NCBI GenBank assembly: GCA_944372795.1
Contig: CALWAF010000001.1
Location: 1 to 64,000, forward strand
Direction of reading: 5' to 3'
Length of the DNA stretch: 64,000 nt
Origin: an uncultured Clostridia bacterium
GTDB lineage: Bacteria > Bacillota > Clostridia > Christensenellales > CAG-917
Positions 33,719-47,475 of this stretch are shown here, piece after piece. Numbering within the stretch: position 1 is the first letter of the stretch; the number at the start of each line of letters is the position of its first letter. The notes beneath the pieces were generated by a model. The model saw only the letters and a program-made list of their open reading frames with translations. It was not told the origin of the DNA and did no database searches. Position numbers and translations under genes: made by a program.

Positions 33719-35746
33719 TTATTCTTCTTTATCCTCGCCATCGGGAGGAGTCTCGGTGACCGTGACGGTGACCTCCTCTTCCTCGGTGCCGTCGGAGGTG
33801 ACGGTGGTGTCCACGGTCTCGTCCACCGTGACGGTGCTGCCGTCCGCGCCCTCTGCCACGAGTTTAGCCTCGTTGCGGCGCTTGATCTCGGCGACTGCCT
33901 CCTGCTGCTCCTTCTCGTTGAACTTGTAGAAGAAGATGGGGACGGCGGAGAGGATGAAGCTCAGAGCCGCGACCAGCATGAGCATGATCCACATGACGTC
34001 CTTGCCGCTTGCGTCCAGCGCGCCGGGGTTGTTGGCGGTGACGCCCGCGATGTAGTAACCCATGACGCCGATGAACGCGCCGATCGCCATACCGATCTTG
34101 TTGATGAAGGTCTGCATCGCGAAGCAGATGCCTTCCGCTCTCTCGCCCGTCTTGAGCTCGAGATACTCGATGGTGTCGCCGATCATGGCGTAGGAAACGA
34201 TGTTGGTAAGACCGGACGGGATGCCGGAGACGACGATGGCAAGCAGCGCGATGACGAGAGTCGCCGTCGAGGTATAGTTGCCTTTGTCGATCGCCATACC
34301 GACGATGAACGCGATGAGGAGAGCCACGCCGCCCGCGATATTCGTCCAGATGTAGGACTGTTTCTTGCCTATCTTCTTGGTGAGATAAGGCACCATGAGG
34401 GATGCGATGAGTCCGCCGGGGACGATGGCGATGGTGACCAGCGTGTAGAGACCTTCGCCGTGCATTCCTATGAAGTTGACGCTGTCAAGGACATATTTGC
34501 AGAAGTAGAGTCCGCCCGTGTAGGTGAAGACCATTCTCGCCGCGCCCAGGATGCCCGAGATGACGATGAGCATGAGGGGCTTGTTCTTGAACAACAGGGA
34601 GAGGTTGTGCTTGAGAGACGGGGGTTTGACGTTGTCCAGTTCGCTCGTCCTCTCCTTCGTGAATTTGAAGCCGACGAAGAAGAGAGGCATGCCGACGGCA
34701 ACGCAGATGATCGCCGCCACGAAGTAGATGTAGCTGAGGTCATTCTGCTTTTCGCTGAGAGTGCCGTCCAGGATCTTCTGAAGATCGTTCGCCGTCCATT
34801 CGCTCATGGGCTTGTTGTTTATCAACTCGCCGCCTTCGCTGTCCTTGCCTTCGTAAACGGCTTTCGCCTCGAGATACGCATTGTAGACTGCGGAATCCTT
34901 GCCGAACTCTTTCAGGATGAAGTTTTCGAGAGTGCCGTAGTTTGCGGTGATGTTCGCAAACGTGCCGTCACGGTTGGCGTCAAAGTTGAGAGAGAAATCT
35001 TCGGTTTTGTCTCCGTCCTTGTCCACATCCGCAAGGTCATCGACGATGATCTCGCCGCCCTCGCTGTCCACCGCAAACTGGATCTGGGAAACGATGCCCT
35101 GATAGGCGTTGATGTTGGTCTGCAAAGTGCCGGTCATACCGCTGGTGACCTGAGGCACCACGATGGTGACGATGCCCGCGCCGGCAGTGCACAGCAGACG
35201 CGCTATGGTCAGCAGGTTGCCGCGGCGGAAAGTGTCGTTGGACATGCGGGAGTTCAGTCCCCAGTAAGGCACGTCGCAGACGGTGTACACCATGCCCCAG
35301 ATTATGTACATGATGGACATTGCCGCAAAACCGCCGGGACTTTGAGGATACCACGGCAGGAAGCACAGGATGGTCACCACCGCGACGGGGATCGCCATCC
35401 ATTTAAGATAAGGACGGCACTTGCCCCACGGGGTGCGCGTTCTGTCGACGATGGAGCCCATGATCGGGTCGTTCAATGCGTCGTAAATTCGCGCAAACAG
35501 CATGAGCAGCGCGACCGCCAACGCACCGTAACCGATCGCATCCGTCATAAAGACGGTCAGATAAGAACCGATGATGGTGCAGATCAGGTTCTGACCGAAG
35601 CCGCACAGAGAGTACGCAATGCCCTCTTTCGGCTGCATTTCGCCGTCGCCGGGATAAGTGCCGAAAAGCTTGTGCCAAATGCTGCGCTTTTCGGTGCCCG
35701 CCTCCGCGACGCCGTTAGTCATGGATTCGACTTTGACATCTTCCAT
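33719..35746 (-). CDS. GPH-family sugar:cation symporter with large acidic insert
   Basis: This 675-residue MFS transporter of the glycoside-pentoside-hexuronide family (MelB/XynB-like) imports oligosaccharides or glycosides with a cation. The family motif LFARIYDALNDPIMGSIVDRTRTPWGKCRPYL is at 83-114. Twelve membrane segments are recognisable, but a roughly 130-residue soluble insert (about 205-337) interrupts the middle. The insert contains two Asp-rich loops, D240-V-D-K-D-G245 and D256-A-N-R-D-G261, resembling EF-hand or dockerin calcium loops. The C-terminus is acidic. It has its own promoter and terminator, next to the GH31 cassette it probably serves. Confidence 0.9.
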   Translation of the reverse strand: MEDVKVESMTNGVAEAGTEKRSIWHKLFGTYPGDGEMQPKEGIAYSLCGFGQNLICTIIGSYLTVFMTDAIGYGALAVALLMLFARIYDALNDPIMGSIVDRTRTPWGKCRPYLKWMAIPVAVVTILCFLPWYPQSPGGFAAMSIMYIIWGMVYTVCDVPYWGLNSRMSNDTFRRGNLLTIARLLCTAGAGIVTIVVPQVTSGMTGTLQTNINAYQGIVSQIQFAVDSEGGEIIVDDLADVDKDGDKTEDFSLNFDANRDGTFANITANYGTLENFILKEFGKDSAVYNAYLEAKAVYEGKDSEGGELINNKPMSEWTANDLQKILDGTLSEKQNDLSYIYFVAAIICVAVGMPLFFVGFKFTKERTSELDNVKPPSLKHNLSLLFKNKPLMLIVISGILGAARMVFTYTGGLYFCKYVLDSVNFIGMHGEGLYTLVTIAIVPGGLIASLMVPYLTKKIGKKQSYIWTNIAGGVALLIAFIVGMAIDKGNYTSTATLVIALLAIVVSGIPSGLTNIVSYAMIGDTIEYLELKTGERAEGICFAMQTFINKIGMAIGAFIGVMGYYIAGVTANNPGALDASGKDVMWIMLMLVAALSFILSAVPIFFYKFNEKEQQEAVAEIKRRNEAKLVAEGADGSTVTVDETVDTTVTSDGTEEEEVTVTVTETPPDGEDKEE

Positions 35747-36040: not shown

Positions 36041-38029
36041 TCAGGCGCGCCCGTGTCGAAGCGTTATGCCGGCAAAGAGCGGTGCAAACGCGCTCCCCTT
36101 GCGGTAAAACGCGACGGGTTTGCCGAGAGGCGCCGCAAAGCGTTCCTTTGTCCCGCCCTTATGCTCCGTACCGTCGAAGAACTTCACCCAATCCCCCGCA
36201 GGGAGGGTGACTTCGCGCGTCTCGGCACCCTTTTCGATGACGGGAGCCACAAAGACGTCCCCGCCGAGGAAGTAGGCATATTCCTCTCTGCTTGCGGAAT
36301 AGTCGCCACATTCGTAGAAATCGGGACGCATGACGGGGATGCCCTCCTCCGCCTCCTTCATGCAGGCTGCAAGGTAGGGTTTGAGCGCGGCGTGCACTTC
36401 GGACAGCGATGCGGTGACGTCGACGATGTCGTCGTTGTACGGCTGGACGTTGACATCGGGGCGTATGGTCTCGTGCGAGCGCATGAGCGGGGAGAAAGCG
36501 TCCATCTCCGTCCAGCGGATGAGCAGCTCGCGGCTGCGGGAGAGGGATGCGAAACTGATGAATCCGCCCACATCGCTGTGCACCGCCGCCATCCCCGAAA
36601 AGCCGAGGTTGAACGTCGCGGGCATGACACAGGGCATGCCGTAGTCTTTGGTGAGATCAACGTGCTGATCCCCGTTCCACATCATCGTGGTGTAGGTCTG
36701 CGCGCCGTTGTAGCCCGAGCGGGTGAAGAAGAATATCTCTTTCGCACGGGGGTGCGAATCGACGGCCTCGCGGTTGATCTTCGCCCAAAGGGTGGGCCAC
36801 TCGTTGTGCATCGCTGCGGGATCACCGGCGTGCAGAACGCAGTCGACGGGGAGATATTCCCCGAAATCCGCCATATATCCGTCCACTCCCCTGTCCAGCA
36901 TATTGCGTTTGATGAGCACCTCTTTGATGAACTCGACGGCGGCTGGATAAGTGAGGTCCAGCATACCCGCGTCGAAGGTGGTGGACTTGACGTGATATAT
37001 CTCGCCCTTGCGGTCGCGGATGAGCATACCTTTCTTCGCGCACTCGTTGTAGAGCCTGCCGTCTTTTACGAGGTAGGGGTTGATGTAGGCGAGGAAGTGC
37101 ACCCCCTTCTCTTTCAACGCCGCGACGTTTTTGTCGAAGTCAGGATAATAGTTCTCGTCCGCCTCCCAATTCCAATACACCTGCTTGCCGACGGCGGTCA
37201 CTTTCCTGCCGCTCCAGTCCTGACTCCACACACCCGCGAGTTTAACACCCTTTTTCTGCATTTCAAGTGCCTTTTCGAGCACTCTGTCCATGCCGCCCTG
37301 CACCGCGACGATCATCCCGTCGTGCGCCCAATCGGGGAGATATGCGCGGCAGGGCGTGTGCGCGTTCAAAGCCTTTGCCACGTCTTTGAAACTCTCGCCC
37401 GAGGTGTAGAACACGCTTCTCGGGCACTTCTCGAAACGGAAGACGGAGACGTCGCCTCGGGTGAAGTCGGCTATGCCGTAGGAGGACACGTCGAAGCGGA
37501 GCGCATATCTCGCGCTGCTCGTATAGGTGCTCATCGGGCTGTACGTCTCGATGTAGGAATGAGGCTTCTCCTTGTACGGCAAAAAGCCGAGCACCGTCTT
37601 TTGCACGATGGGGGGCACGACGATGTGTTCCGAGACGAAGTTGACGATCTTCTCCCCTTTCATATCGAGCTTGCGATATTGCTCTCCTCCGCCGAAGATG
37701 CCCTCGTCGGGCTCGGCGAGAAAGGCGAGCTCGGTGATGAAATCACCGCTCGCGGAAAAGTCCATCACGATGCCGCCGAAGCGGGCGGCAAACTTCACAT
37801 CCACCCTTTTGTCGCCCGCGGCAAAGACGAGGGATCCCTCATCGCCTCCGACGAGAGAGAGCGGGATGCGTTTTGCGATCTTCTCCTTCACCTTGAAGTT
37901 GCCGTGGGAACTGCGGTAGGCATAGCTCCCTTCCGCCGCCGTAAGGAAGGGCGTCTTCGGGGTATGCTCCATCACCTTTCTCCCGCCGCACCAAAGCTCG
38001 GCGGAATCAGCGTTGCGGATAAGTCTCAT
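36041..38029 (-). CDS. GH31 glycosidase, sulfoquinovosidase-like
   Basis: This 662-residue cytoplasmic (no signal) family 31 retaining glycosidase resembles YihQ over its length: VWSQDWSG, WNWEADENYYPDFD, FLAYINPYL, the nucleophile in GYMADFGEYLP (Asp389 counted from the upstream ATG), MHNEWPTLWAKINREA, the acid/base in WNGDQ (Asp455) and HSDVGG. In YihQ the sulfonate is held by Arg301, Trp304 and Tyr508 (with Gln288). Counting from shared motifs, these are Gln284, Trp287, Phe491 and Gln271 here, so the Arg and Tyr are lost. It is thus an alpha-glycosidase of this clade with probably changed substrate. Start at 38029 has AGGAGGA; the 5' end overlaps the DMT gene by 23 nt. Confidence 0.88.
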   Translation of the reverse strand: MRLIRNADSAELWCGGRKVMEHTPKTPFLTAAEGSYAYRSSHGNFKVKEKIAKRIPLSLVGGDEGSLVFAAGDKRVDVKFAARFGGIVMDFSASGDFITELAFLAEPDEGIFGGGEQYRKLDMKGEKIVNFVSEHIVVPPIVQKTVLGFLPYKEKPHSYIETYSPMSTYTSSARYALRFDVSSYGIADFTRGDVSVFRFEKCPRSVFYTSGESFKDVAKALNAHTPCRAYLPDWAHDGMIVAVQGGMDRVLEKALEMQKKGVKLAGVWSQDWSGRKVTAVGKQVYWNWEADENYYPDFDKNVAALKEKGVHFLAYINPYLVKDGRLYNECAKKGMLIRDRKGEIYHVKSTTFDAGMLDLTYPAAVEFIKEVLIKRNMLDRGVDGYMADFGEYLPVDCVLHAGDPAAMHNEWPTLWAKINREAVDSHPRAKEIFFFTRSGYNGAQTYTTMMWNGDQHVDLTKDYGMPCVMPATFNLGFSGMAAVHSDVGGFISFASLSRSRELLIRWTEMDAFSPLMRSHETIRPDVNVQPYNDDIVDVTASLSEVHAALKPYLAACMKEAEEGIPVMRPDFYECGDYSASREEYAYFLGGDVFVAPVIEKGAETREVTLPAGDWVKFFDGTEHKGGTKERFAAPLGKPVAFYRKGSAFAPLFAGITLRHGRA

Positions 38030-39002
38030 CATTTCCTCCTTTTGACGTGCTTTCGCGTTGATAGACGACGGAGGGCAATTTCCCGCTCTCCATCCTGCGT
38101 CTGTTGATCTTGCCGCGCAGGGCGATCGCCGCCGCGCCTCCCAGCACCAGCACCATGCCGACCGCTTTCATCCACCCGAACTCCTCGTCAAAGAGGAAGA
38201 CTCCCGCGATGCACGTGAGCACCGGCACAAAGAGCAGATAAAGTTTGACGACCCACACGGGGTGCTTTTTCAGATTGCGGTAATAGAACACATAGATAAG
38301 CGTCTGCGCCAGCCCTCCGCCGAGGAAGGCGAAGACGTGCCACACCTCGAGCTCGACGGCGCCGAGAGCCTCGAAGTCCCCCGCGATGAGAGAGCTCAAG
38401 GTGAACAGCACGAGCACGACGAAGTTGTTGTAGTAGCCTATGACGTCGGAGTCCGCAGAAAGCCTGTCCTGCGCCGTCTTGATGACGAAGGCGTTTGCCG
38501 TGACGGACGCCGCGCTTGCGATGAAGAAGAGGTCGTACCAGTTGAACCCTGCGGAGCCGAAGTCGATGTCGAGGACGAGTATCACCCCGCCCAGCATAAC
38601 CAGCGTAGACACCCAATCCGAGAGGTACAGCCTCTCTTTGAGGAACACCGCGGTGACGATGTTCGCCATCAGGATGTCCGTCTTTAAGAGCACCGTCCCC
38701 GTCCCCACCGAGCCGTAGGCGAACCCGAGATTGGCGAAAGTGTCCAGCATATAGCCTAGCACGCCTATGAGCAGGAGCACGAGCGCGGTCTTCCCCTGCC
38801 TGAACACGGCGCCGAGCTTTTTGCGCGCGGCGAGATAGACGGTGAGGAAGACGAGGGCCCCTGCCCGCAGCAGCATCCCGGCGGCGAAGGCGGAACCAGT
38901 GAAGGCGACCGCCCAATCGGACGCGAGATAATAGCCCGTCCATGCGACGATCATGCCTGCGATGCAACACACGTCTGCGACGATGTCCTTATTTGTCCTC
39001 AT
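38007..39002 (-). CDS. DMT-superfamily (EamA-like) transporter
   Basis: A 331-residue membrane protein with ten hydrophobic segments in two repeats (first half ends VFLKERLYLSDWVSTLVMLGGVILVL, second ends VFLFDEEFGWMKAVGMVLVLGGAAAIAL), the EamA layout. It ends in a basic tail. Such proteins export or import small polar metabolites; in this operon, export of an end product or uptake of the sugar are both possible. It overlaps the genes on either side by 14 and 23 nt, so it belongs to the same transcript. Confidence 0.87.
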   Translation of the reverse strand: MRTNKDIVADVCCIAGMIVAWTGYYLASDWAVAFTGSAFAAGMLLRAGALVFLTVYLAARKKLGAVFRQGKTALVLLLIGVLGYMLDTFANLGFAYGSVGTGTVLLKTDILMANIVTAVFLKERLYLSDWVSTLVMLGGVILVLDIDFGSAGFNWYDLFFIASAASVTANAFVIKTAQDRLSADSDVIGYYNNFVVLVLFTLSSLIAGDFEALGAVELEVWHVFAFLGGGLAQTLIYVFYYRNLKKHPVWVVKLYLLFVPVLTCIAGVFLFDEEFGWMKAVGMVLVLGGAAAIALRGKINRRRMESGKLPSVVYQRESTSKGGNDETYPQR

Positions 39003-39630
39003 TGCAGGAAAGCACCGCGATGTTGGCGCCCGTCACGCCGACCTTGCCGCCTGCGGCAATGCCCGCGGCGTTATCCTCGTGCACGAGAAGCCACTTGTTT
39101 ACGGCGCGCAGCGTGCCGTTTATCCCTCCCGCAAGAGGCGCGTTCGTCCCCTTCGGAAGGATGATCGACACGGCAAACCGCTCCCCGACCGCAAGCGGCG
39201 CGAGGTGCAGCGTGCCGGAAAACAGCTCCGCCGCCTCTCCCTTTTCGAGCGCGAGCGCGACGGATCGGGAACTGTCATAAGTGTCCTCCTCGATGTCGCG
39301 TACGTCACCTAGGATGAGCACGCAGTCCGTCGCGGCGACGACCACCTCGGAGGACTTGTGCCATTCGACACCGTTCATCTTCCTCCCGCATCCGTAACAC
39401 CAGCCCGCCTGCACGGGAAGCTCCGCAAACACTCTGCGCTCTATATCCCCGACTGCGGGAAGCGCTTCGAGCGCGGGATCGCCCGCGACATAAACGTTGC
39501 TCTCGGAGAGCGGCAGCGCGTCCGCAAGAGCGACGATACTCTCCGTATCCGCCTCGACCTTCTTAAAGAGAGGGGATCTGTCCGCAAGGGTGAGCACGGG
39601 TATGTTGACGTCCAACGCGAATTTTTTCAT
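38989..39630 (-). CDS. DUF4867-like protein
   Basis: This 213-residue protein resembles the uncharacterised DUF4867 family: ...PAVGDIERRVFAELPVQAGWCYGCGRKMNGVEWHKSSEVVVAATDCVLILGDVRDIEEDTYDSS, then a beta-rich cupin-like end with HLAPLAV and ILPKGTNAPL. The pattern His...Glu and the beta strands suggest a metal-binding cupin, possibly a sugar isomerase or mutarotase. A CYGCG segment might bind metal. Its genes commonly sit with sugar isomerases, as here. No function is established. Confidence 0.72.
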   Translation of the reverse strand: MKKFALDVNIPVLTLADRSPLFKKVEADTESIVALADALPLSESNVYVAGDPALEALPAVGDIERRVFAELPVQAGWCYGCGRKMNGVEWHKSSEVVVAATDCVLILGDVRDIEEDTYDSSRSVALALEKGEAAELFSGTLHLAPLAVGERFAVSIILPKGTNAPLAGGINGTLRAVNKWLLVHEDNAAGIAAGGKVGVTGANIAVLSCNEDK

Positions 39631-39631
39631 T

Positions 39632-40948
39632 TTACAACACCTCGGTGTTCGTCAGCTTGGCGAAGATCGTGAATGCCGCCGAAAGCGAGCCGTAGATCAT
39701 GGAGACATGGTGGGCAAGCCCGTTGACGATCACCCTGTCCGTCACCTCGGATGCGGGACGGTCGAACTTCACCTTCGCATAGGTGCCGGTGAGCAATTTC
39801 TCCATGGGCACCGCCTCACCCTTTTCGAGGTAAAGACGATAGTTGCCGTTCACGCTGTCCAGCCTTGCCAGCTCCACTCTGCCCGTCTTCATAACAAAGC
39901 CCGCGGTGACGCCCTTTCCTCCCGCGAAATAGGTGTCGAGAGTGGGGGTGCAATCCGCGGCACAGAGCGAGCGCGGCGCCACGCCGCAATGCCACATAAG
40001 CGCGGTGTTCTCCTCCTCGTTCACCTGCGAAAGATCCGCCATGAACGGGGTGGGAGCGCCCGCCGCCGCGTGACATAGCATGGTGAGGGCGCAGTCCACG
40101 TCCCCCTCGCAAGCGAAGATCATCCCGTCGTTTTGCAGCAGCGACATGGAAGCGCAGGGTGCAATGCCGAATCCTGCGGCAAACTCCGGCCAGCAGCGCA
40201 CCGCCACCGCCGAGAAACGCTTGGCTGCAAAGAAGGCTTTTAATGAGGCGCAAAGAGATGCGACCTTGTCCTTTTGCGTGTCCGTGACCGCACTGCAATC
40301 ATAGAGACTGTCCACGCGCTCGCGATAGAGTGCGACGTCCTTTTCGTCCGCGGGGAAATTGTAGGCATCGGCGAGTTCGCAATATTCCACGGTGACGCCG
40401 TATTTGCCGTAAAGGGCGAGTTCATCCACACCGACGTTATAAAACCCGTGCGCGCGGGAACCGATCACACCGACCCTGCAATTTTTGAGCGCCGCGATCA
40501 TCCTGACCGCGTCCAGCCAGTCCTCGTCGATCGCGGATGACACCTTGTAGGTGAAATCCCTGTGTCCGCTCTTGTAGAGGTTGGAGGCGTCAAGGTTCAC
40601 CCCGCACACCGAATTGAGTCGGATCTTTCCGCCGTTGTACGGCAGCTCGGGCAATCCCCAAAGGAGCAGCGGACGATCGCAGCGCTTCTTGATCTCCGGC
40701 ACCAGCCCTCCGAGATGGAATGTGCCCGAAAGGACTGCGACCGCATCTACGTTTTCTTTGAGGAGAAAATCTCCCGCTTCCTCGGCTTTGTCCGCCTCCA
40801 TGACGGGATCGGGATATGCCGAAAGTTCGAGATCCTCCCTTGCGGAAAGGGTCGCTACTATGCCGCGATAGATGTCTTCCGCCGCTTTGAAATCAAAGGT
40901 GTTGCGAGTGAGGCAGACGATGCCGAGTTTTATTTTTCTTTTTGCCAT
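39632..40948 (-). CDS. L-fucose/L-arabinose isomerase-like protein
   Basis: A 438-residue protein of the FucIase-like superfamily: KLGIVCLTRNTFDFKAAEDI at the start, LLLWGLPELPYN, CRVGVIGSRAHGFYNVGVDE, then AVRCWPEF and a beta-rich C-terminal domain. Family members are Mn-dependent aldose-ketose isomerases, including isomerases of 6-deoxy-6-sulfoglucose. It is the obvious isomerase for the sugar released by the GH31 enzyme. The start at 40948 is chosen for GGGAGGAT; the frame is open further upstream without a ribosome site. Confidence 0.85.
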   Translation of the reverse strand: MAKRKIKLGIVCLTRNTFDFKAAEDIYRGIVATLSAREDLELSAYPDPVMEADKAEEAGDFLLKENVDAVAVLSGTFHLGGLVPEIKKRCDRPLLLWGLPELPYNGGKIRLNSVCGVNLDASNLYKSGHRDFTYKVSSAIDEDWLDAVRMIAALKNCRVGVIGSRAHGFYNVGVDELALYGKYGVTVEYCELADAYNFPADEKDVALYRERVDSLYDCSAVTDTQKDKVASLCASLKAFFAAKRFSAVAVRCWPEFAAGFGIAPCASMSLLQNDGMIFACEGDVDCALTMLCHAAAGAPTPFMADLSQVNEEENTALMWHCGVAPRSLCAADCTPTLDTYFAGGKGVTAGFVMKTGRVELARLDSVNGNYRLYLEKGEAVPMEKLLTGTYAKVKFDRPASEVTDRVIVNGLAHHVSMIYGSLSAAFTIFAKLTNTEVL

Positions 40949-40967
40949 ATATCCTCCCTCGGGCGCG

Positions 40968-42092
40968 TCACACGCCGAAAACGCGTTCCAGCATGATGTG
41001 TCGGGCACCCGAAAATGCTTTCGGTTTTTTGTCGTCGCCGACCTGCGAGATGGCGAACGTTCCGCCGAATCCCGCCCTGTCGATCGCCTCGCAGAGTGCA
41101 TCGAAAAGGGGTTTGCGCGAGAATATGCCGCCTGTCACGAGCACCCGCGCGGGGTTGAGCAGCATGGCGGCGTTGCCTATGGAAAGGGCGATGAGACCTA
41201 TGCTCTCGTCCAGCACTCCCGTGGCGGCGGAGTCCCCTCCGAATGCATCGTAAATCGCCGAAACGGGCAGTTCAACACCCGTTTTCGACCGATAAAGTTC
41301 CGTCAAGTGTTTTTCGGACACATACGCTTCCAAGCACCCGCGCTTGCCGCAACGGCAGGGTTCACCCCCTTCCTTCACGACTATGTGTCCGATCTCGCCC
41401 GCTCGTCCCGTAGCGCCCGAGACGGTGACTCTGTCGGAGATGACTGCGCAGCCTATGCCGGGACCGTGCTTGACCAGCATGAAGTCGTCCTCGCATCCCG
41501 TAATGAGCGCGCGAGCTTGTGCACGGACGTTGTTGATGAGAGACACTTCGCACCCCGTGCCCTCCCGCACTTTCGCGGCAAGTGGCAGCCCGTCCGGGAG
41601 GATGCCGTAGCTCGTGACCGAAACGCCGCTTCTCTCATCCGCGATGCCCGATGCGGCGATGCCGACTCCGACGAATTTTCTCCCTCCGCACGCGGAGGCG
41701 AGCTCTGCGACCCTTTCGTTGAGCTTGTCGATCCCACGCTCGAAGAGCATCTGCGTCGGGTATATCTCCTCTGCCAGCACCTCATTCCACGTGCACAGGG
41801 AAACATGTGTGTTGTCGCTCTCGATGTTGACGCCGACGGCGGCGATGCGCTCGCCCGCGAAACGCAGCAGCGTCTCCCGTCTCCCCGCGACGCTTTTTGT
41901 CACCTCGCCGCTCTCTTCCACAAGCCCTTCGGAGATGAGTTCCTTGCATAGCTGCGTCACAGAAGCGCCCGTAAGACCCGTCTTGGCGGCGATCCTGACG
42001 CGGGAAAGCTCCCCTTCCCGCATGAGCAGGAAGAGCACTGCCGCCTTGTTGCCGCGGCGCAGACCTTTGAGACTGCGGGTGCCGCTTGTCAA
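40968..42092 (-). CDS. ROK-family transcriptional regulator
   Basis: This 374-residue protein has an N-terminal winged helix (NKAAVLFLLMREGELSRVRIAAKTGLTGASVTQLCKELISEGLV) and a ROK sugar-binding domain with GRAGEIGHIVV and the zinc motif CRCGKRGCLEAYV. The start is a TTG at 42090-42092 with GGAGGA five bases upstream; it overlaps the TGA of the dehydrogenase gene (TTGA). It is probably the repressor of its own operon, released by a sugar, acting at the palindrome at 43729-43749. Confidence 0.9.
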   Translation of the reverse strand: MTSGTRSLKGLRRGNKAAVLFLLMREGELSRVRIAAKTGLTGASVTQLCKELISEGLVEESGEVTKSVAGRRETLLRFAGERIAAVGVNIESDNTHVSLCTWNEVLAEEIYPTQMLFERGIDKLNERVAELASACGGRKFVGVGIAASGIADERSGVSVTSYGILPDGLPLAAKVREGTGCEVSLINNVRAQARALITGCEDDFMLVKHGPGIGCAVISDRVTVSGATGRAGEIGHIVVKEGGEPCRCGKRGCLEAYVSEKHLTELYRSKTGVELPVSAIYDAFGGDSAATGVLDESIGLIALSIGNAAMLLNPARVLVTGGIFSRKPLFDALCEAIDRAGFGGTFAISQVGDDKKPKAFSGARHIMLERVFGV

Positions 42093-43192
42093 TCCAGTCC
42101 TCCGAAAGCCTCGGCAAGTTCCTCTGCCGAATACGCTCTTATATTGTTTTGCATGAGGGGATGGACGGCGCACTCTCTTGCAAGCGAAGCGATGTCCGCG
42201 CACCCGATGGCTTTAAGCGTCGAGCGCATCCCCGTCTTTTTCTTGATGCGGACGATCTCGTCCGCCATGGCGTCCGCAGAGGCAAAACCCTGTGTCTTTG
42301 CGAGTGCGGTCAACCTCTCGGCGTCAAAGCGCGAGTTCATGCGCAGGAAAAGATCGAGCGTGAATGCGCACGCCTCGCCGTGCGGCAGCCCGAAGCCCTC
42401 CGAGAGAGGATAACTGCACGCGTGCACCGCAGCGGTGCGCGTGGGCGCAAACGCAAGTCCCGCAAGCAGCGCGCCCATGCTCATATCCGTGCGCGCCGAA
42501 ATGTCGCTTCCGTCGTCGTAAGCGCGGTCGATGGCACCGAAAAGGAGTTTGAGCGCTTTTTCCGCAAAGGCGTCCGAGACGGGATTGTGCCGCCTGCACC
42601 AATAGGCTTCGACCGCGTGCGCAATGGCGTCCAACCCGCATGTCGCGGTGACGAAGGGCGGCACCGTGAGGGTGAGCTTCGGGTCCACAACTGCCGCTTC
42701 CGCGAAAAACGCGGGCGAGGAAAGGGGCTTCTTCACTCCCCTCTTCCCGTCACTCATGACCGAAACGCCCGTCACTTCGCTGCCCGTGCCCGCAGTGGTC
42801 GGGAGGGCGATGACGGGAAGCCCGTCCTCGGGGATGTCGCCGTAAAAGAGTTCTTCCGCGCTCTTGCCCGTCTTTGCGGCGACGGCAACGAATTTTCCGA
42901 GGTCGATGGCGGAGCCGCCGCCGACTGCGACTATGTGATCGGCCGCGATATCACGTGCGATCTTTGCCGCGTCATCGGCAGCGGAGATGTCGGGATCGGC
43001 TCCAAAGGCGGAAAACACCGCGTCCGTACCCGCGCACTTCGCGATCTCTCCCGCGACGCCGTTCGCCGCAAGAAAGCCGTCGGCGATGACGAGAGCTCTC
43101 TTGTGCCCGAAGGAGGCAGCGATCTCGCCGATTCGTCCCCTCTCCCCCGCGCCGAAGAATATCTTTACCGGTTGCGAATAGGAAAAACCCAT
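42089..43192 (-). CDS. Iron-containing alcohol dehydrogenase
   Basis: A 367-residue group III alcohol dehydrogenase (NAD(P)-dependent, Fe2+). HIVAVGGGSAIDLGKFVA is the dinucleotide motif, ALPTTAGTGSEVTGVSV is typical, and the metal ligands lie in CGLDAIAHAVEAY and FGLPHGEACA. Relatives reduce short aldehydes including sulfoacetaldehyde, phosphonoacetaldehyde and lactaldehyde. In this operon it probably disposes of an aldehyde fragment from sugar cleavage. It lies 2 nt after the RpiB-like gene. Confidence 0.92.
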   Translation of the reverse strand: MGFSYSQPVKIFFGAGERGRIGEIAASFGHKRALVIADGFLAANGVAGEIAKCAGTDAVFSAFGADPDISAADDAAKIARDIAADHIVAVGGGSAIDLGKFVAVAAKTGKSAEELFYGDIPEDGLPVIALPTTAGTGSEVTGVSVMSDGKRGVKKPLSSPAFFAEAAVVDPKLTLTVPPFVTATCGLDAIAHAVEAYWCRRHNPVSDAFAEKALKLLFGAIDRAYDDGSDISARTDMSMGALLAGLAFAPTRTAAVHACSYPLSEGFGLPHGEACAFTLDLFLRMNSRFDAERLTALAKTQGFASADAMADEIVRIKKKTGMRSTLKAIGCADIASLARECAVHPLMQNNIRAYSAEELAEAFGGLD

Positions 43193-43194
43193 AG

Positions 43195-43698
43195 TCAGTC
43201 CCTGAAATTCTCCTTCTCGGTCTCGGCGACCTTTTCCGCAGCGGCGGAAAGCCATTCTTTGCGCCACTCTTCGATGCCGACGTAGGTCTCGGCGGAAAGA
43301 TAAGCCTTCGCCATCTCTACGCCCATTTCGGGGGCTACGATCCAGCCGCCCATGCACATCACCTGCGCGCCGTTGATGACCCTTGCCATGCGTGCGGAAT
43401 ATACACCCTCGCACGCGACGGCGGAAAGACCTTTGAACTTGTTGGCGACGACGTTCATGCCCGCGCCCGTCCCGCAGATGAGGATGGCGCGGTCGTATTC
43501 GCCCGAAAGCACTCTCGGCGCGACATCGCACGCCACGCGGTAATAGGGGTGCACGTCATTGAGATCGGTGGTGCCGAGGTCGTCACGGACGGGGTCGAAC
43601 TCCACTCCGAGCGCCTTCGCATCCTCGGACGCGAGAAAACTTTTGACCGCTTCTTTAAGCAGATAACCCGATTTGTCTGAACCTATCGCTACTCTCAT
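43195..43698 (-). CDS. RpiB/LacA/LacB-family sugar isomerase
   Basis: A 167-residue aldose-ketose isomerase. IGSDKSGYLLKEAV is the N-terminal motif, and ICGTGAGMNVVANKFKGLSAVACEGVYSARMARVINGAQVMCMGG carries the catalytic Cys and anion hole. RpiB members act on ribose-5-phosphate, allose-6-phosphate, galactose-6-phosphate or, in one branch, 4-deoxy-4-sulfoerythrose. The GSD...K opening differs from the usual GCDHAG, so the phosphate/substrate pocket may be altered. It is the first gene of the cassette, behind a consensus promoter and palindrome. Confidence 0.9.
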   Translation of the reverse strand: MRVAIGSDKSGYLLKEAVKSFLASEDAKALGVEFDPVRDDLGTTDLNDVHPYYRVACDVAPRVLSGEYDRAILICGTGAGMNVVANKFKGLSAVACEGVYSARMARVINGAQVMCMGGWIVAPEMGVEMAKAYLSAETYVGIEEWRKEWLSAAAEKVAETEKENFRD

Positions 43699-43728: not shown

Positions 43729-43749
43729 TTAATTAAAACTTTTAATCAA
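43729..43749. promoter_or_regulatory. 21-bp palindromic operator
   Basis: On the + strand TTAATTAAAACTTTTAATCAA: arms of ten bases around a central C with a single mismatch pair. It begins directly at the -10 box of the cassette promoter and covers the predicted start site, so a bound protein would block transcription. The ROK regulator encoded in the operon is the natural candidate. Confidence 0.75.
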
Positions 43750-43777
43750 TTATACCCCTCTTCTCCCGCGATGTCAA
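43749..43777 (-). promoter_or_regulatory. Promoter of the RpiB-to-GH31 cassette
   Basis: On the minus strand TTGACA (43772-43777), 17 nt, TATAAT (43749-43754): full consensus. Confidence 0.9.
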
Positions 43778-43841: not shown

Positions 43842-45059
43842 TCACTCGAAGACTATGATGTCGGCGGGAGAGGAATAGACCTTCCAGTCTCTCGCCCGCG
43901 CGGTGTTGGGGTCGCGCCCCGCCGCAAACGCGGCAAAGCGGTCCACCATCTCATCCGACAGCGCGAAGTCCTCCTTGGTGAAAGGTCTTGATGACCTTCC
44001 TAAAGAGCCGAGCGCATACCACAGGTCGCAGGAGTGGAAGGACGCTCCGTCGGGAGGGAGCGGACGCCTGAATGAAAAGACGTAGCACGGCACTCCGCGC
44101 TTTTTCTGCCGCCGAGCAAATGCCCGCGCCATATGGTTGAGCAAGGGAGGGAGCAGATCCTTCGTGACGGTGCCGAATACTGTGGGGACGTCGGTGTCAT
44201 AGCAGGCGCTCGTGACCAGCTCGCCGTCGATGACGGGCTTTGTGTAAAGCGCCTTCCCCGCGACGTGCTTGGTCTTCCACGCAGTCCACACCTTTTCTGC
44301 GGGCATGGCGGCAAATTCCTCGAACGAGGATGCTCCCGCCGCTTTGATAAGGCTTTTCCAATAGCGAGTCGCGGGCTTCGCAAGCGGGAGCAAGACGCCG
44401 CGCTTGCCTCCGCCCGAGAGCATCACGGCGCCGTTGACCTTGCCCTTCATCTTGTCGGAACAGATGAGCGTCTGCACGCTCATCGCGCCCGCGCTCTGCC
44501 CCATGAGCGTGATGTTCTCGGGATCGCCGCCGAACGCCGCGATGTTGTGGCGCACCCACTCTATCGCGGTATACTGATCCCACAGCCCGAGGTTGCCCTC
44601 GGAGTGCTCGCCGTCCGCGAAGAAACCGAAGACGTTGAGGCGGTAATTGATGGCGACATAGATGACTCCCCTCTTGGTGTATGCCGAGCCGTCGAAGTGC
44701 ATCTCGTTGATGCTGCCTCCCGTGAAGCTGCCGCCGTGGATGAAGATGAGCACGGGACACCCCGCGGCGTCGCGCGGACAGTGGATGTCGAGGATAAGGC
44801 AGTCTTCGCTGTAATCGAATTTCATCCCTTTGCGGAACTCTTGATAATAAAACCTGTGCTCCTCATTCCAAAAGGCGCGCATCTGCGGACAGCACACGCC
44901 CTGTTTCGTCGCGTCGAACGCGCCCGCATACGCCGTCACTTCTACGGGCTTGCGGAACCTCTCCGCCGTGGCGTACTTCACGCCGCGGAATACGGCGCCG
45001 TAGTCGGTGGCTCTTCCCGCTATCTCCCCGCAGGGAGCCATTACTCTAACGGTCTCCAT
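43842..45059 (-). CDS. Type B carboxylesterase
   Basis: A 405-residue alpha/beta hydrolase of the carboxylesterase B family: EDCLILDIHCP, the oxyanion motif FIHGGSFTGG, and the nucleophile elbow GQSAGA. The family length is about 480-500, so this one is compact, lacking part of the C-terminal half; a late HSCDLWYALG supplies a plausible catalytic His. There is no signal peptide, hence cytoplasmic. It could remove acyl or methyl groups from imported glucuronides. The start at 45059 overlaps the preceding gene by 14 nt; 45041 is an alternative. It is the last gene of the operon. Confidence 0.85.
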   Translation of the reverse strand: METVRVMAPCGEIAGRATDYGAVFRGVKYATAERFRKPVEVTAYAGAFDATKQGVCCPQMRAFWNEEHRFYYQEFRKGMKFDYSEDCLILDIHCPRDAAGCPVLIFIHGGSFTGGSINEMHFDGSAYTKRGVIYVAINYRLNVFGFFADGEHSEGNLGLWDQYTAIEWVRHNIAAFGGDPENITLMGQSAGAMSVQTLICSDKMKGKVNGAVMLSGGGKRGVLLPLAKPATRYWKSLIKAAGASSFEEFAAMPAEKVWTAWKTKHVAGKALYTKPVIDGELVTSACYDTDVPTVFGTVTKDLLPPLLNHMARAFARRQKKRGVPCYVFSFRRPLPPDGASFHSCDLWYALGSLGRSSRPFTKEDFALSDEMVDRFAAFAAGRDPNTARARDWKVYSSPADIIVFE

Positions 45060-45795
45060 CCCTAAACCCCGCCATGGTGCGCATGGAATATTCCATGGAA
45101 GCGAAAGGACGCGGGGAAAGATCGAGCTCCGCCACCGCATACTTCACGCCGTGTGCCTCCGCGCATTTCAGGACGGAGGGGAAATCGATCTCCCCCTTCC
45201 CGACCGCGCGGAATATCTTATGTTTGTAATCCTTGAGGTGTATCGTTTCCACCCTGCCGTCCAGCTTTTTGAGATACGCCTCGATGTCCTGCCCCGCGAA
45301 ACGGATCCAATAAGTGTCGGGGATGAAGCGCACGCGAGGATCGGTGTTGGCGATGAGATAGTCGTACATCACCTCGCCCTCCACCTTGTCGAACTCGAAC
45401 CAATGGTTGTGATAGGCGATGGTCATGTTCTTCGCCGCGAGTTTTTCCGCGGTGTCGTTGAGAAAGTCCGCGAACCTGTTGAGGTCGGAGAGCTTCCCGG
45501 TGCGGAACTTCTGCGGCATCATGCCTATGCCCATCGCGTTGCAGTCGTAGATGCGGTGCTCTTCGACGAGCCCGTCGAGGTCGTTCTCCAGCCTCGCAAA
45601 ACTGTCGTGAGTGAGGCATATCGGCAGCGAATATTTCTCCGTGAGCCCTTTCAGAAACCCTGCGGGCACGGGTTTACCTCCGGAGAGTTGCACCACTTCC
45701 GCGCCCGCCTTTTTCACTCTGTCAAAGACGTTTTCGTAGCCGCGCTCATCCTTGAGATATTTCCGGAGCGAAAAGAGTTGTACGCCGTATCTCAT
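45046..45795 (-). CDS. TIM-barrel sugar isomerase/epimerase (IolE-like), short form
   Basis: A 249-residue xylose-isomerase-like barrel. YGVQLFSLRKYL at the start, AYHNHWFEF (the metal-site HNH), PDTYWIRFAG and IHLKDYK are the hallmark strands of IolE/IolI-like and 3-keto-glycoside-processing enzymes. It lies 3 nt after the GPH symporter in the glucuronate operon. It may catalyse an elimination or epimerisation on the oxidised sugar made by the Gfo/Idh protein. Confidence 0.87.
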   Translation of the reverse strand: MRYGVQLFSLRKYLKDERGYENVFDRVKKAGAEVVQLSGGKPVPAGFLKGLTEKYSLPICLTHDSFARLENDLDGLVEEHRIYDCNAMGIGMMPQKFRTGKLSDLNRFADFLNDTAEKLAAKNMTIAYHNHWFEFDKVEGEVMYDYLIANTDPRVRFIPDTYWIRFAGQDIEAYLKKLDGRVETIHLKDYKHKIFRAVGKGEIDFPSVLKCAEAHGVKYAVAELDLSPRPFASMEYSMRTMAGFRDGDR

Positions 45796-45798
45796 GTT

Positions 45799-47475
45799 TT
45801 ATTCCTCTGTTTTGTCGGTCTCAACAGCCGTTTCGGTCGGTTCGTCCGCCGAGTCGGGATCTTCCGCACCTGTAGGAGCCGCCTCCGCGAGCGCATCCTC
45901 TTCGCGCGCTTCGAGCTCGGAAACGGAGGCGAACACATCCGCCTCGCCGCTGCCCGCAAGATGCTCGATGCCCTCGGCATTGTCGATGGAAATGGCATTG
46001 CTGGCATACGCCTCTTTGAGGTGCTCTTCTTTGAGGACTTGCAGCTGCGCGACTTTCTTCTTGGAGAGCGGATACCACACCAGCAGCACCACCGCCATGA
46101 GTCCGAAGAGGACTGCGGGGATGATGGTGGCAAGGTCATACATGACGGCAAGGTTCTCCGACGTCTGGATGGCGCCCTTCGTGTTGTCGTAGTTCATCGC
46201 GAGCAGCGCGCCGTTGACGGCGACGGCTGCGATGACCTGACCGAGCTTTCTGAAGAACATGAAGAAGGAATATGCCGTCCCGTCGTCGCGGCGGTTGGTC
46301 TTGATCTCGATCTCGTCGATGGCGTCTGTCGCCATGGACCACACCTGCAGGATGATGAAGGCGAGCCCCATGCCGCTCACGAAGCACAGCACCATGAACA
46401 GATAGGCAAGGATGCCGGGATCGACGCCGCGCAGGGCGAACATGCCGAGATTTGCGACGGCTGCGAGGATCATGCCCACTCCGCATATCTCCTTCTTGCC
46501 GAACTTCCGCACCATCTTGGGAGTGAAGAACATGAATATCGCCATGGGCGCGTAGGTGCACACCGTGGACACGAGGTTCATCCAAGATTTGCCGAAATAG
46601 TCGTCAAAGAGATAGAGATAGAAGCTCTGGGTGAACATCTGACCCGCGAGCAGCAGCATGCTCGCGACGCTGACGGAGAGGAAGGCTCTGTTTTTGAAGA
46701 GGTCCTTGATGATGGACATCGTCTCCCCTTTCTCGCACTTGGTGGGCTTTGCGATGACGCGCTCCTTGTTGGAGAAGAAAGCGAGGATGAGCATCCCGAG
46801 CGCGATGGCGGCGACCACTGCGACACCGATGATGATGGGGGTGTACTGCATCACTTCGATATCGCGGCCCGTCTCGGGATTTTTGCCCACCGTCTCATAG
46901 CAGAAGGACGCGATGAGCACTGCGGGCACGGAACCGACGCCCGCGCCGATGGAACGGAACACCGAGAGTTTGGTGCGCTCCTTTTCGTCCGTCGTGACGA
47001 CGGAGGCGAGGCTGCCGTAGGGGATCTGGAGCATGGTATAGCTCATGCCAAACATGACGTAGGTCACGGTGGCGTAGATGCAGGTGCCTACATAGTCCAC
47101 ATCGCCCGTCAGCCCCGGCCAGCGTATGAACATCAGCACCGTGGAGAGGATGAGGGGACCTGCCGCCCACAGAAACCACGGGCGGTATCTGCCCCATTTG
47201 GAGATCTTGATGGTGTCCGCGATCCTGCCCATGATGGGGTCGTTGATGGCGTCCCACACTCTTGCGCCGATGAACATCAGCATGATGAACAGCGGATCGA
47301 GGAAAAAGATGTCGGTGTAAAACTTCTGCAAAAAGGACGTGACCAGCCCGAACACGAGGCAGCATGCGGTGTCGCCCATCGCGTAGCCGATGTAGTCCTT
47401 GGTGGCGAGCCCGCTGGTGCGGGCGATGTAACTGGACTGTTCGGAACGAACAGCCGCCGTGTCGTTATTGCTCAT
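45799..47475 (-). CDS. GPH-family glycoside/hexuronide:cation symporter
   Basis: A 558-residue MFS transporter with the GPH hallmark GARVWDAINDPIMGRIADTIKISKWGRYRPW and twelve membrane segments. Its C-terminus carries a long acidic tail (residues about 490-558, Glu/Ala-rich) with no similarity I recognise. In the glucuronate operon it is the likely uptake system for glucuronides. AAGGGAG precedes the ATG. Unlike the symporter at 33719, it has no large central insert. Confidence 0.92.
   Translation of the reverse strand: MSNNDTAAVRSEQSSYIARTSGLATKDYIGYAMGDTACCLVFGLVTSFLQKFYTDIFFLDPLFIMLMFIGARVWDAINDPIMGRIADTIKISKWGRYRPWFLWAAGPLILSTVLMFIRWPGLTGDVDYVGTCIYATVTYVMFGMSYTMLQIPYGSLASVVTTDEKERTKLSVFRSIGAGVGSVPAVLIASFCYETVGKNPETGRDIEVMQYTPIIIGVAVVAAIALGMLILAFFSNKERVIAKPTKCEKGETMSIIKDLFKNRAFLSVSVASMLLLAGQMFTQSFYLYLFDDYFGKSWMNLVSTVCTYAPMAIFMFFTPKMVRKFGKKEICGVGMILAAVANLGMFALRGVDPGILAYLFMVLCFVSGMGLAFIILQVWSMATDAIDEIEIKTNRRDDGTAYSFFMFFRKLGQVIAAVAVNGALLAMNYDNTKGAIQTSENLAVMYDLATIIPAVLFGLMAVVLLVWYPLSKKKVAQLQVLKEEHLKEAYASNAISIDNAEGIEHLAGSGEADVFASVSELEAREEDALAEAAPTGAEDPDSADEPTETAVETDKTEE

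Follow-up and report, generated by a model that had tools for sequence, protein, structure and literature searches.

A sulfo-transketolase-like operon without a linked transketolase in an uncultured Clostridia bacterium

How can a gene cluster that resembles a sulfoglycolysis pathway work when it encodes no enzyme to cleave a carbon–carbon bond? The question is raised by an operon in a 64-kb stretch of DNA from an uncultured Clostridia bacterium (the whole stretch is called the window here), whose enzyme classes had been likened in a preliminary description to those of the sulfo-transketolase (sulfo-TK) pathway. Our analysis indicates that this operon is probably a sulfo-TK variant for the plant sulfosugar sulfoquinovose (SQ), with the transketolase (TK) supplied in trans.

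The operon runs from 43698 to 36041 on the minus strand and is made of seven co-directional genes, which lie a few bases apart or overlap slightly and form a single operon. Gene classes were assigned with Pfam and NCBIfam profiles, and all seven were found where they had been described. The first gene (43195–43698; PF02502, 3e-32) encodes an RpiB-family isomerase of the SqwI type, a proposed 4-deoxy-4-sulfoerythrose isomerase. It is followed by an iron-containing alcohol dehydrogenase (ADH) of the SqwF type, a proposed sulfoacetaldehyde reductase (42089–43192; PF00465 and PF25137), and a ROK-family repressor with a helix-turn-helix domain (40968–42107, start uncertain; PF00480 and MarR/HTH models). 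The fourth gene (39632–40948) encodes a FucI-like isomerase of the sulfo-TK-linked SQ isomerase type, assigned by Fucose_iso_C, identities and a tree. The last three encode a DUF4867 protein of the SftX/SqvB family (38989–39630; PF16161, 1e-49), an EamA/DMT transporter that is a proposed sulfonate exporter (38007–39002; PF00892), and a glycoside hydrolase of the YihQ family of GH31 with R301Q and Y508F, a proposed sulfoquinovosidase variant (36041–38032). A tblastn search of the 64-kb window with both TKs of the genome, a cluster-linked SqwGH-type pair and a transaldolase as queries gave no match, in line with the preliminary description, which had reported neither TK nor transaldolase in the operon.

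Upstream of the RpiB gene, also on the minus strand, lies a promoter (43749–43777) with TTGACA at 43772–43777, a 17-bp spacer and TATAAT at 43749–43754. Its −10 box is overlapped by a 21-bp palindrome, TTGATTAAAAGTTTTAATTAA, at 43729–43749. Of 11 cassettes, 10 have this palindrome ahead of RpiB with ≤3 mismatches to TTAATTAAAAGTTTTAATTAA; in the remaining one a variant of it occurs three times. It is kept across families, and a TTGACA-like box occurs at equal distance in most relatives. The ROK gene and the palindrome are conserved together, and we propose that the ROK protein is a repressor, which would act on the operon at the 43729 palindrome.

To place the enzymes, we used full sulfoglycolysis clusters from the same class for comparison, namely locus L127 (genome G591), L132/L133 (G593 and G632) and the loci of the sulfo-TAL pathway. 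The L127 cluster contains GH31, DUF4867, isomerase, RpiB, ADH, a TauE-like protein and a TK pair. L132/L133 contain isomerase, transaldolases, RpiB, a TK pair, ADH and a DMT protein, plus dihydroxyacetone kinase-like and glycerol dehydrogenase-like genes. The comparison is anchored by the published Faecalicatena cluster, whose gene content is that of L132/L133, and by the cluster-linked TK C-halves, all of which carry R, A, D and R at the positions of the RAFDR motif (PMC11659671). Cluster-linked proteins of relatives served as the sulfo-TK reference for identities and trees, and Clostridium sp. MSTE9 was compared by gene content. Genome G591 also holds a second TK N-half (L150/L203, G591:C211:8642-11513), which is 74% identical to the cluster copy and adjoins a second cluster-type ADH.

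The window RpiB groups with the RpiBs of TK-containing clusters (support 100/100), apart from 18 other RpiBs. Like the cluster-linked SqwI proteins, it has GSDKSG and LE(E/D)WR (EEWR in the window) in place of the GxDHGG and GGRHxxR of most housekeeping copies, which we take to be the phosphate-site motifs of RpiB. The window RpiB has lost these motifs in the same way as the cluster-linked SqwI proteins. A separate housekeeping RpiB (G000:C22), 39% identical to the operon copy, is present in the genome. The isomerase shares 52% identity with that of the complete TK cluster at L127, 52–60% with TK-linked isomerases and 26–30% with sulfo-TAL isomerases, and the tree splits the two types. Against the SQ isomerase model NF048012 it scored 209 bits, below the cut-off of 700, but this model does not discriminate here, as sulfo-TK-linked and sulfo-TAL-linked isomerases all fall below the cut-off. 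A phmmer search for a solved structure of the isomerase gave no match. The ADH groups with cluster-linked ADHs (100/99), apart from the other iron ADHs of the genome, and falls below the cut-off of the SarD model, as the cluster-linked ADHs do. The assignment to sulfo-TK enzyme classes was thus borne out for RpiB, isomerase and ADH, each of which groups with proteins of TK-containing sulfoglycolysis clusters. A grouping of the isomerases with ordinary ribose or fucose enzymes, named beforehand as a possible refutation, was not seen. The DUF4867 protein matches the solved structure 9gyy, with the E-x-H-x3-E and H pattern of metal ligands (taken from PMC11968277) aligned, and we propose a ring-opening or mutarotase role for it. 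The DMT protein has a 37% identical homologue within the TK/transaldolase clusters L132/L133.

The gene set is not a chance assembly, because it recurs across other species, genera and families. Four further species of the genus carry the same cassette, and so does a second genus of the family. Its isomerases form a distinct set (58–84% identity, against about ≤30% for all others) that extends to three further families of the order. In the neighbourhoods of these relatives, RpiB, ADH, ROK, isomerase and GH31 repeatedly occur together, usually with DUF4867 and DMT too. TK and transaldolase are absent from all seven complete copies read with both flanks (the window, L033, L034, L035, L037, L107 and L111), and partial copies agree; the genomes of the relatives are drafts. 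Since the same gap is seen in relatives, the cell most likely borrows an everyday transketolase. At L134, which belongs to another family (G365), the genes for TK-N, TK-C, RpiB, isomerase and DUF4867 are consecutive. In the trees, the RpiB and isomerase of L134 are nested within the TK-less copies; this enzyme set thus also occurs with TK attached.

A route that bypasses TK could be imagined from the neighbourhood of the operon. In the window, L037 and L038, a cluster that includes KDG kinase-like and Gfo/Idh genes lies next to the cassette, and the sugar might be handled by this KDG kinase-type cluster. We give this idea hardly any credence, since the cassettes at L034, L035, L107 and L111 are intact and no KDG kinase homologue was found in the 20 kb read there, and since the SqwI-type isomerase and the aldehyde reductase would be left unexplained. 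The sulfo-TAL route can be ruled out by the absence of a transaldolase gene: PF00923 transaldolase was found in none of the 15 cassette-bearing genomes (the window genome and 14 others) and in both sulfo-TAL controls.

Which transketolase, then, would be used? The window genome encodes two split TKs, both unlinked to the operon. TK1 (G000:C8) shares 55% identity with the TK N-half of L127, a SqwG-type subunit (38% for TK2), and belongs to one large clade with all cluster-linked TK N-halves. It carries D at the position of the phosphate-type H, and C at the position equivalent to S383, where all cluster-linked copies (SqwH) have A. The same two TKs occur in all 10 genomes of the genus, five with and five without the cassette, and 11 of 13 genomes of a sister genus have a TK1-type enzyme as their sole TK. 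TK1 belongs to the SqwGH subfamily and yet is a housekeeping enzyme, because relatives that lack the cassette have it too and because it is often the sole TK in that sister genus. Its presence in cassette-free relatives rules out TK1 as a cassette-specific enzyme. The earlier suggestion that a housekeeping TK is used is favoured by the lack of a linked TK or transaldolase and by the subfamily of TK1, but TK1 is equally frequent without the cassette and thus has no tie to the operon. The further idea of a TK co-regulated through the 43729 palindrome did not hold up. No second copy of the site was found in the window genome at ≤3 mismatches, so no TK shares the operator, and a palindrome-sharing TK is ruled out. 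Our analysis suggests that SqwGH derived from an ordinary split-transketolase class, members of which may already accept sulfofructose.

A dedicated SqwGH-type TK gene might instead have escaped assembly or lie at another place in the genome, which is a draft in 52 contigs and about 95.5% complete; that L134 has TK attached to the same enzyme set would fit this. We nevertheless regard such a gene as very improbable. In the genus, the five genomes with the cassette have only two TKs apiece, and these are the ones also present in the five cassette-free genomes; the seven complete copies with flanks have none, and the loss of one gene from the assemblies of many species is unlikely.

The sugar itself is a separate question. 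The GH31 had been described as altered, and the alteration is real. The protein scores 633 bits with the YihQ-type model NF007746 (PRK10426; cut-off 553) and matches solved sulfoquinovosidases over its length (YihQ 5aed, 3e-128). Compared with YihQ, it keeps W304 and the catalytic pair D405/D472 and has Q at R301 and F at Y508. Two of the three residues R301, W304 and Y508, which we take to be the sulfonate pocket of YihQ, are therefore changed. Q301 is found in all 12 GH31 sequences from cassettes and F508 in 11 of them, and the cassette GH31s sit on a long branch within the YihQ family. In the GH31s of complete sulfo-TAL clusters, Q301 occurs in seven of eight, with Y508. Every sequence with Q301 shows R or K at position 438, together with TT at 368–369; those with R301 mostly have Y at 438 and G followed by E at 368–369. 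These changes at 438 and 368–369 indicate a rearrangement coordinated with Q301, in which R/K438 is possibly a replacement cation, and they argue against R301Q as a simple loss of sulfonate binding. The published sulfonate-pocket signature misses some GH31s of sulfoglycolysis clusters, as the Q301-type group shows. Two further GH31 genes of the Q301/F508 type flank ABC sugar-transporter-like genes at L126 (6211–8160 and 12596–14545); no other sulfoglycolysis genes were recognised near this pair.

These residues bear on the earlier proposal of a different 6-substituted or deoxy sugar. The same chemistry could act on another 6-substituted or 6-deoxy glucose (for example quinovose, giving acetaldehyde and ethanol) with a housekeeping TK. 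Y508F and the long branch leave room for a changed substrate, and TK1 has C where the cluster-linked SqwH has A. R301Q, however, is no sign of a new substrate on its own and is ruled out as proof of one, because it is common in complete sulfo-TAL clusters, where a sulfonate is implied by the transaldolase and the reductase. The gain of R/K at 438 and the grouping of all downstream enzymes with sulfo-TK ones also speak against a different sugar. The proposal is therefore weak, and we consider it unlikely that this conserved sulfo-TK-like operon, found in several families of one Clostridia-type order, serves a sugar with a C6 substituent other than that of sulfoquinovose.

Under the preferred sulfo-TK reading, we infer the substrate, the reactions and the part played by TK1 as follows. 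The GH31 would free sulfoquinovose from its glycosides, and the FucI-like isomerase, perhaps aided by the DUF4867 protein, would convert it to 6-deoxy-6-sulfofructose. A split TK encoded elsewhere, most likely TK1, would transfer a C2 unit from sulfofructose to a phosphosugar acceptor, leaving sulfoerythrose. This would be isomerised to sulfoerythrulose by the RpiB-type enzyme and cut by the same TK to sulfoacetaldehyde, which the ADH would reduce to isethionate for export by the DMT protein. The sulfo-TK reading is supported by the clades of RpiB, isomerase and ADH, the motif loss in RpiB, L134, the absence of transaldolase, the clade of TK1, and a sulfo-TAL cassette beside the same uronate-type cluster in a sister genus. 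It is weakened by a TK that is neither linked nor shares the operator, by the lack of a tie to TK1 and its C at the S383 equivalent, and by a GH31 without two of the three YihQ pocket residues.

Several genes next to the operon may concern transport. A GPH-family symporter in the neighbouring operon (45799–47475, minus strand), a candidate importer, is 49–68% identical to the GPH beside GH31 in L034, L035, L107 and L111. The GPH adjacent to GH31 in these relatives is a homologue of this protein and not of the gene next to GH31 in the window (33719–35746). In the latter, MFS_2 matches twice, on either side of an insertion of about 120 residues, and the cassette loci of relatives contain no close homologue of this protein. 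A carboxylesterase (COesterase, 43842–45140) lies directly upstream of the operon, and 42% identical carboxylesterases follow the GH31–GPH pair in L034 (13995–15134) and L035 (15201–16358). One guess is that GPH and carboxylesterase may serve sulfolipid uptake or deacylation.

Surveys that demand linked sqwG/sqwH would overlook such bacteria as isethionate producers, and isethionate leads to sulfide formation in gut systems. These two genes have been treated as core sulfo-TK genes (PMC13219744, PMC9594981). In the part of the literature covered here, neither paper mentions sulfo-TK clusters without TK. The window cluster has the SQ isomerase, the SqwI-type and the SqwF-type enzymes; with SqwGH missing, it counts as a sulfo-TK variant and not as a member by literal definition.

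Among known systems, the sulfo-TAL/SFT pathway shares DUF4867, ROK and a GH31 often with Q301, but it has a transaldolase and an SLA-reductase-like gene, lacks RpiB and the iron ADH, and uses a distant isomerase. A complete sulfo-TAL cassette occurs in a sister genus (L040–L045), in some species adjoining the same uronate-type cluster as the window cassette; sulfosugar routes have apparently been swapped at one site. The bifurcated TK/transaldolase cluster of Faecalicatena (PMC11659671) shares the isomerase type, RpiB, ADH and DMT protein, and has both TK subunits and transaldolases where the window cluster has neither. The isethionate-forming sulfo-TK pathway of Clostridium sp. MSTE9 (PMC9594981, PMC13219744) shares the YihQ-type GH31, the SQ isomerase class, the SqwI-type RpiB and the SqwF-type iron ADH, with DUF4867 and a repressor in one cluster. 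The window cluster differs from it in lacking SqwGH, in having a DMT protein in place of the TauE-like exporter, and in the R301Q and Y508F changes of its GH31. As far as sequence can say, the window operon acts like the sulfo-TK pathway.
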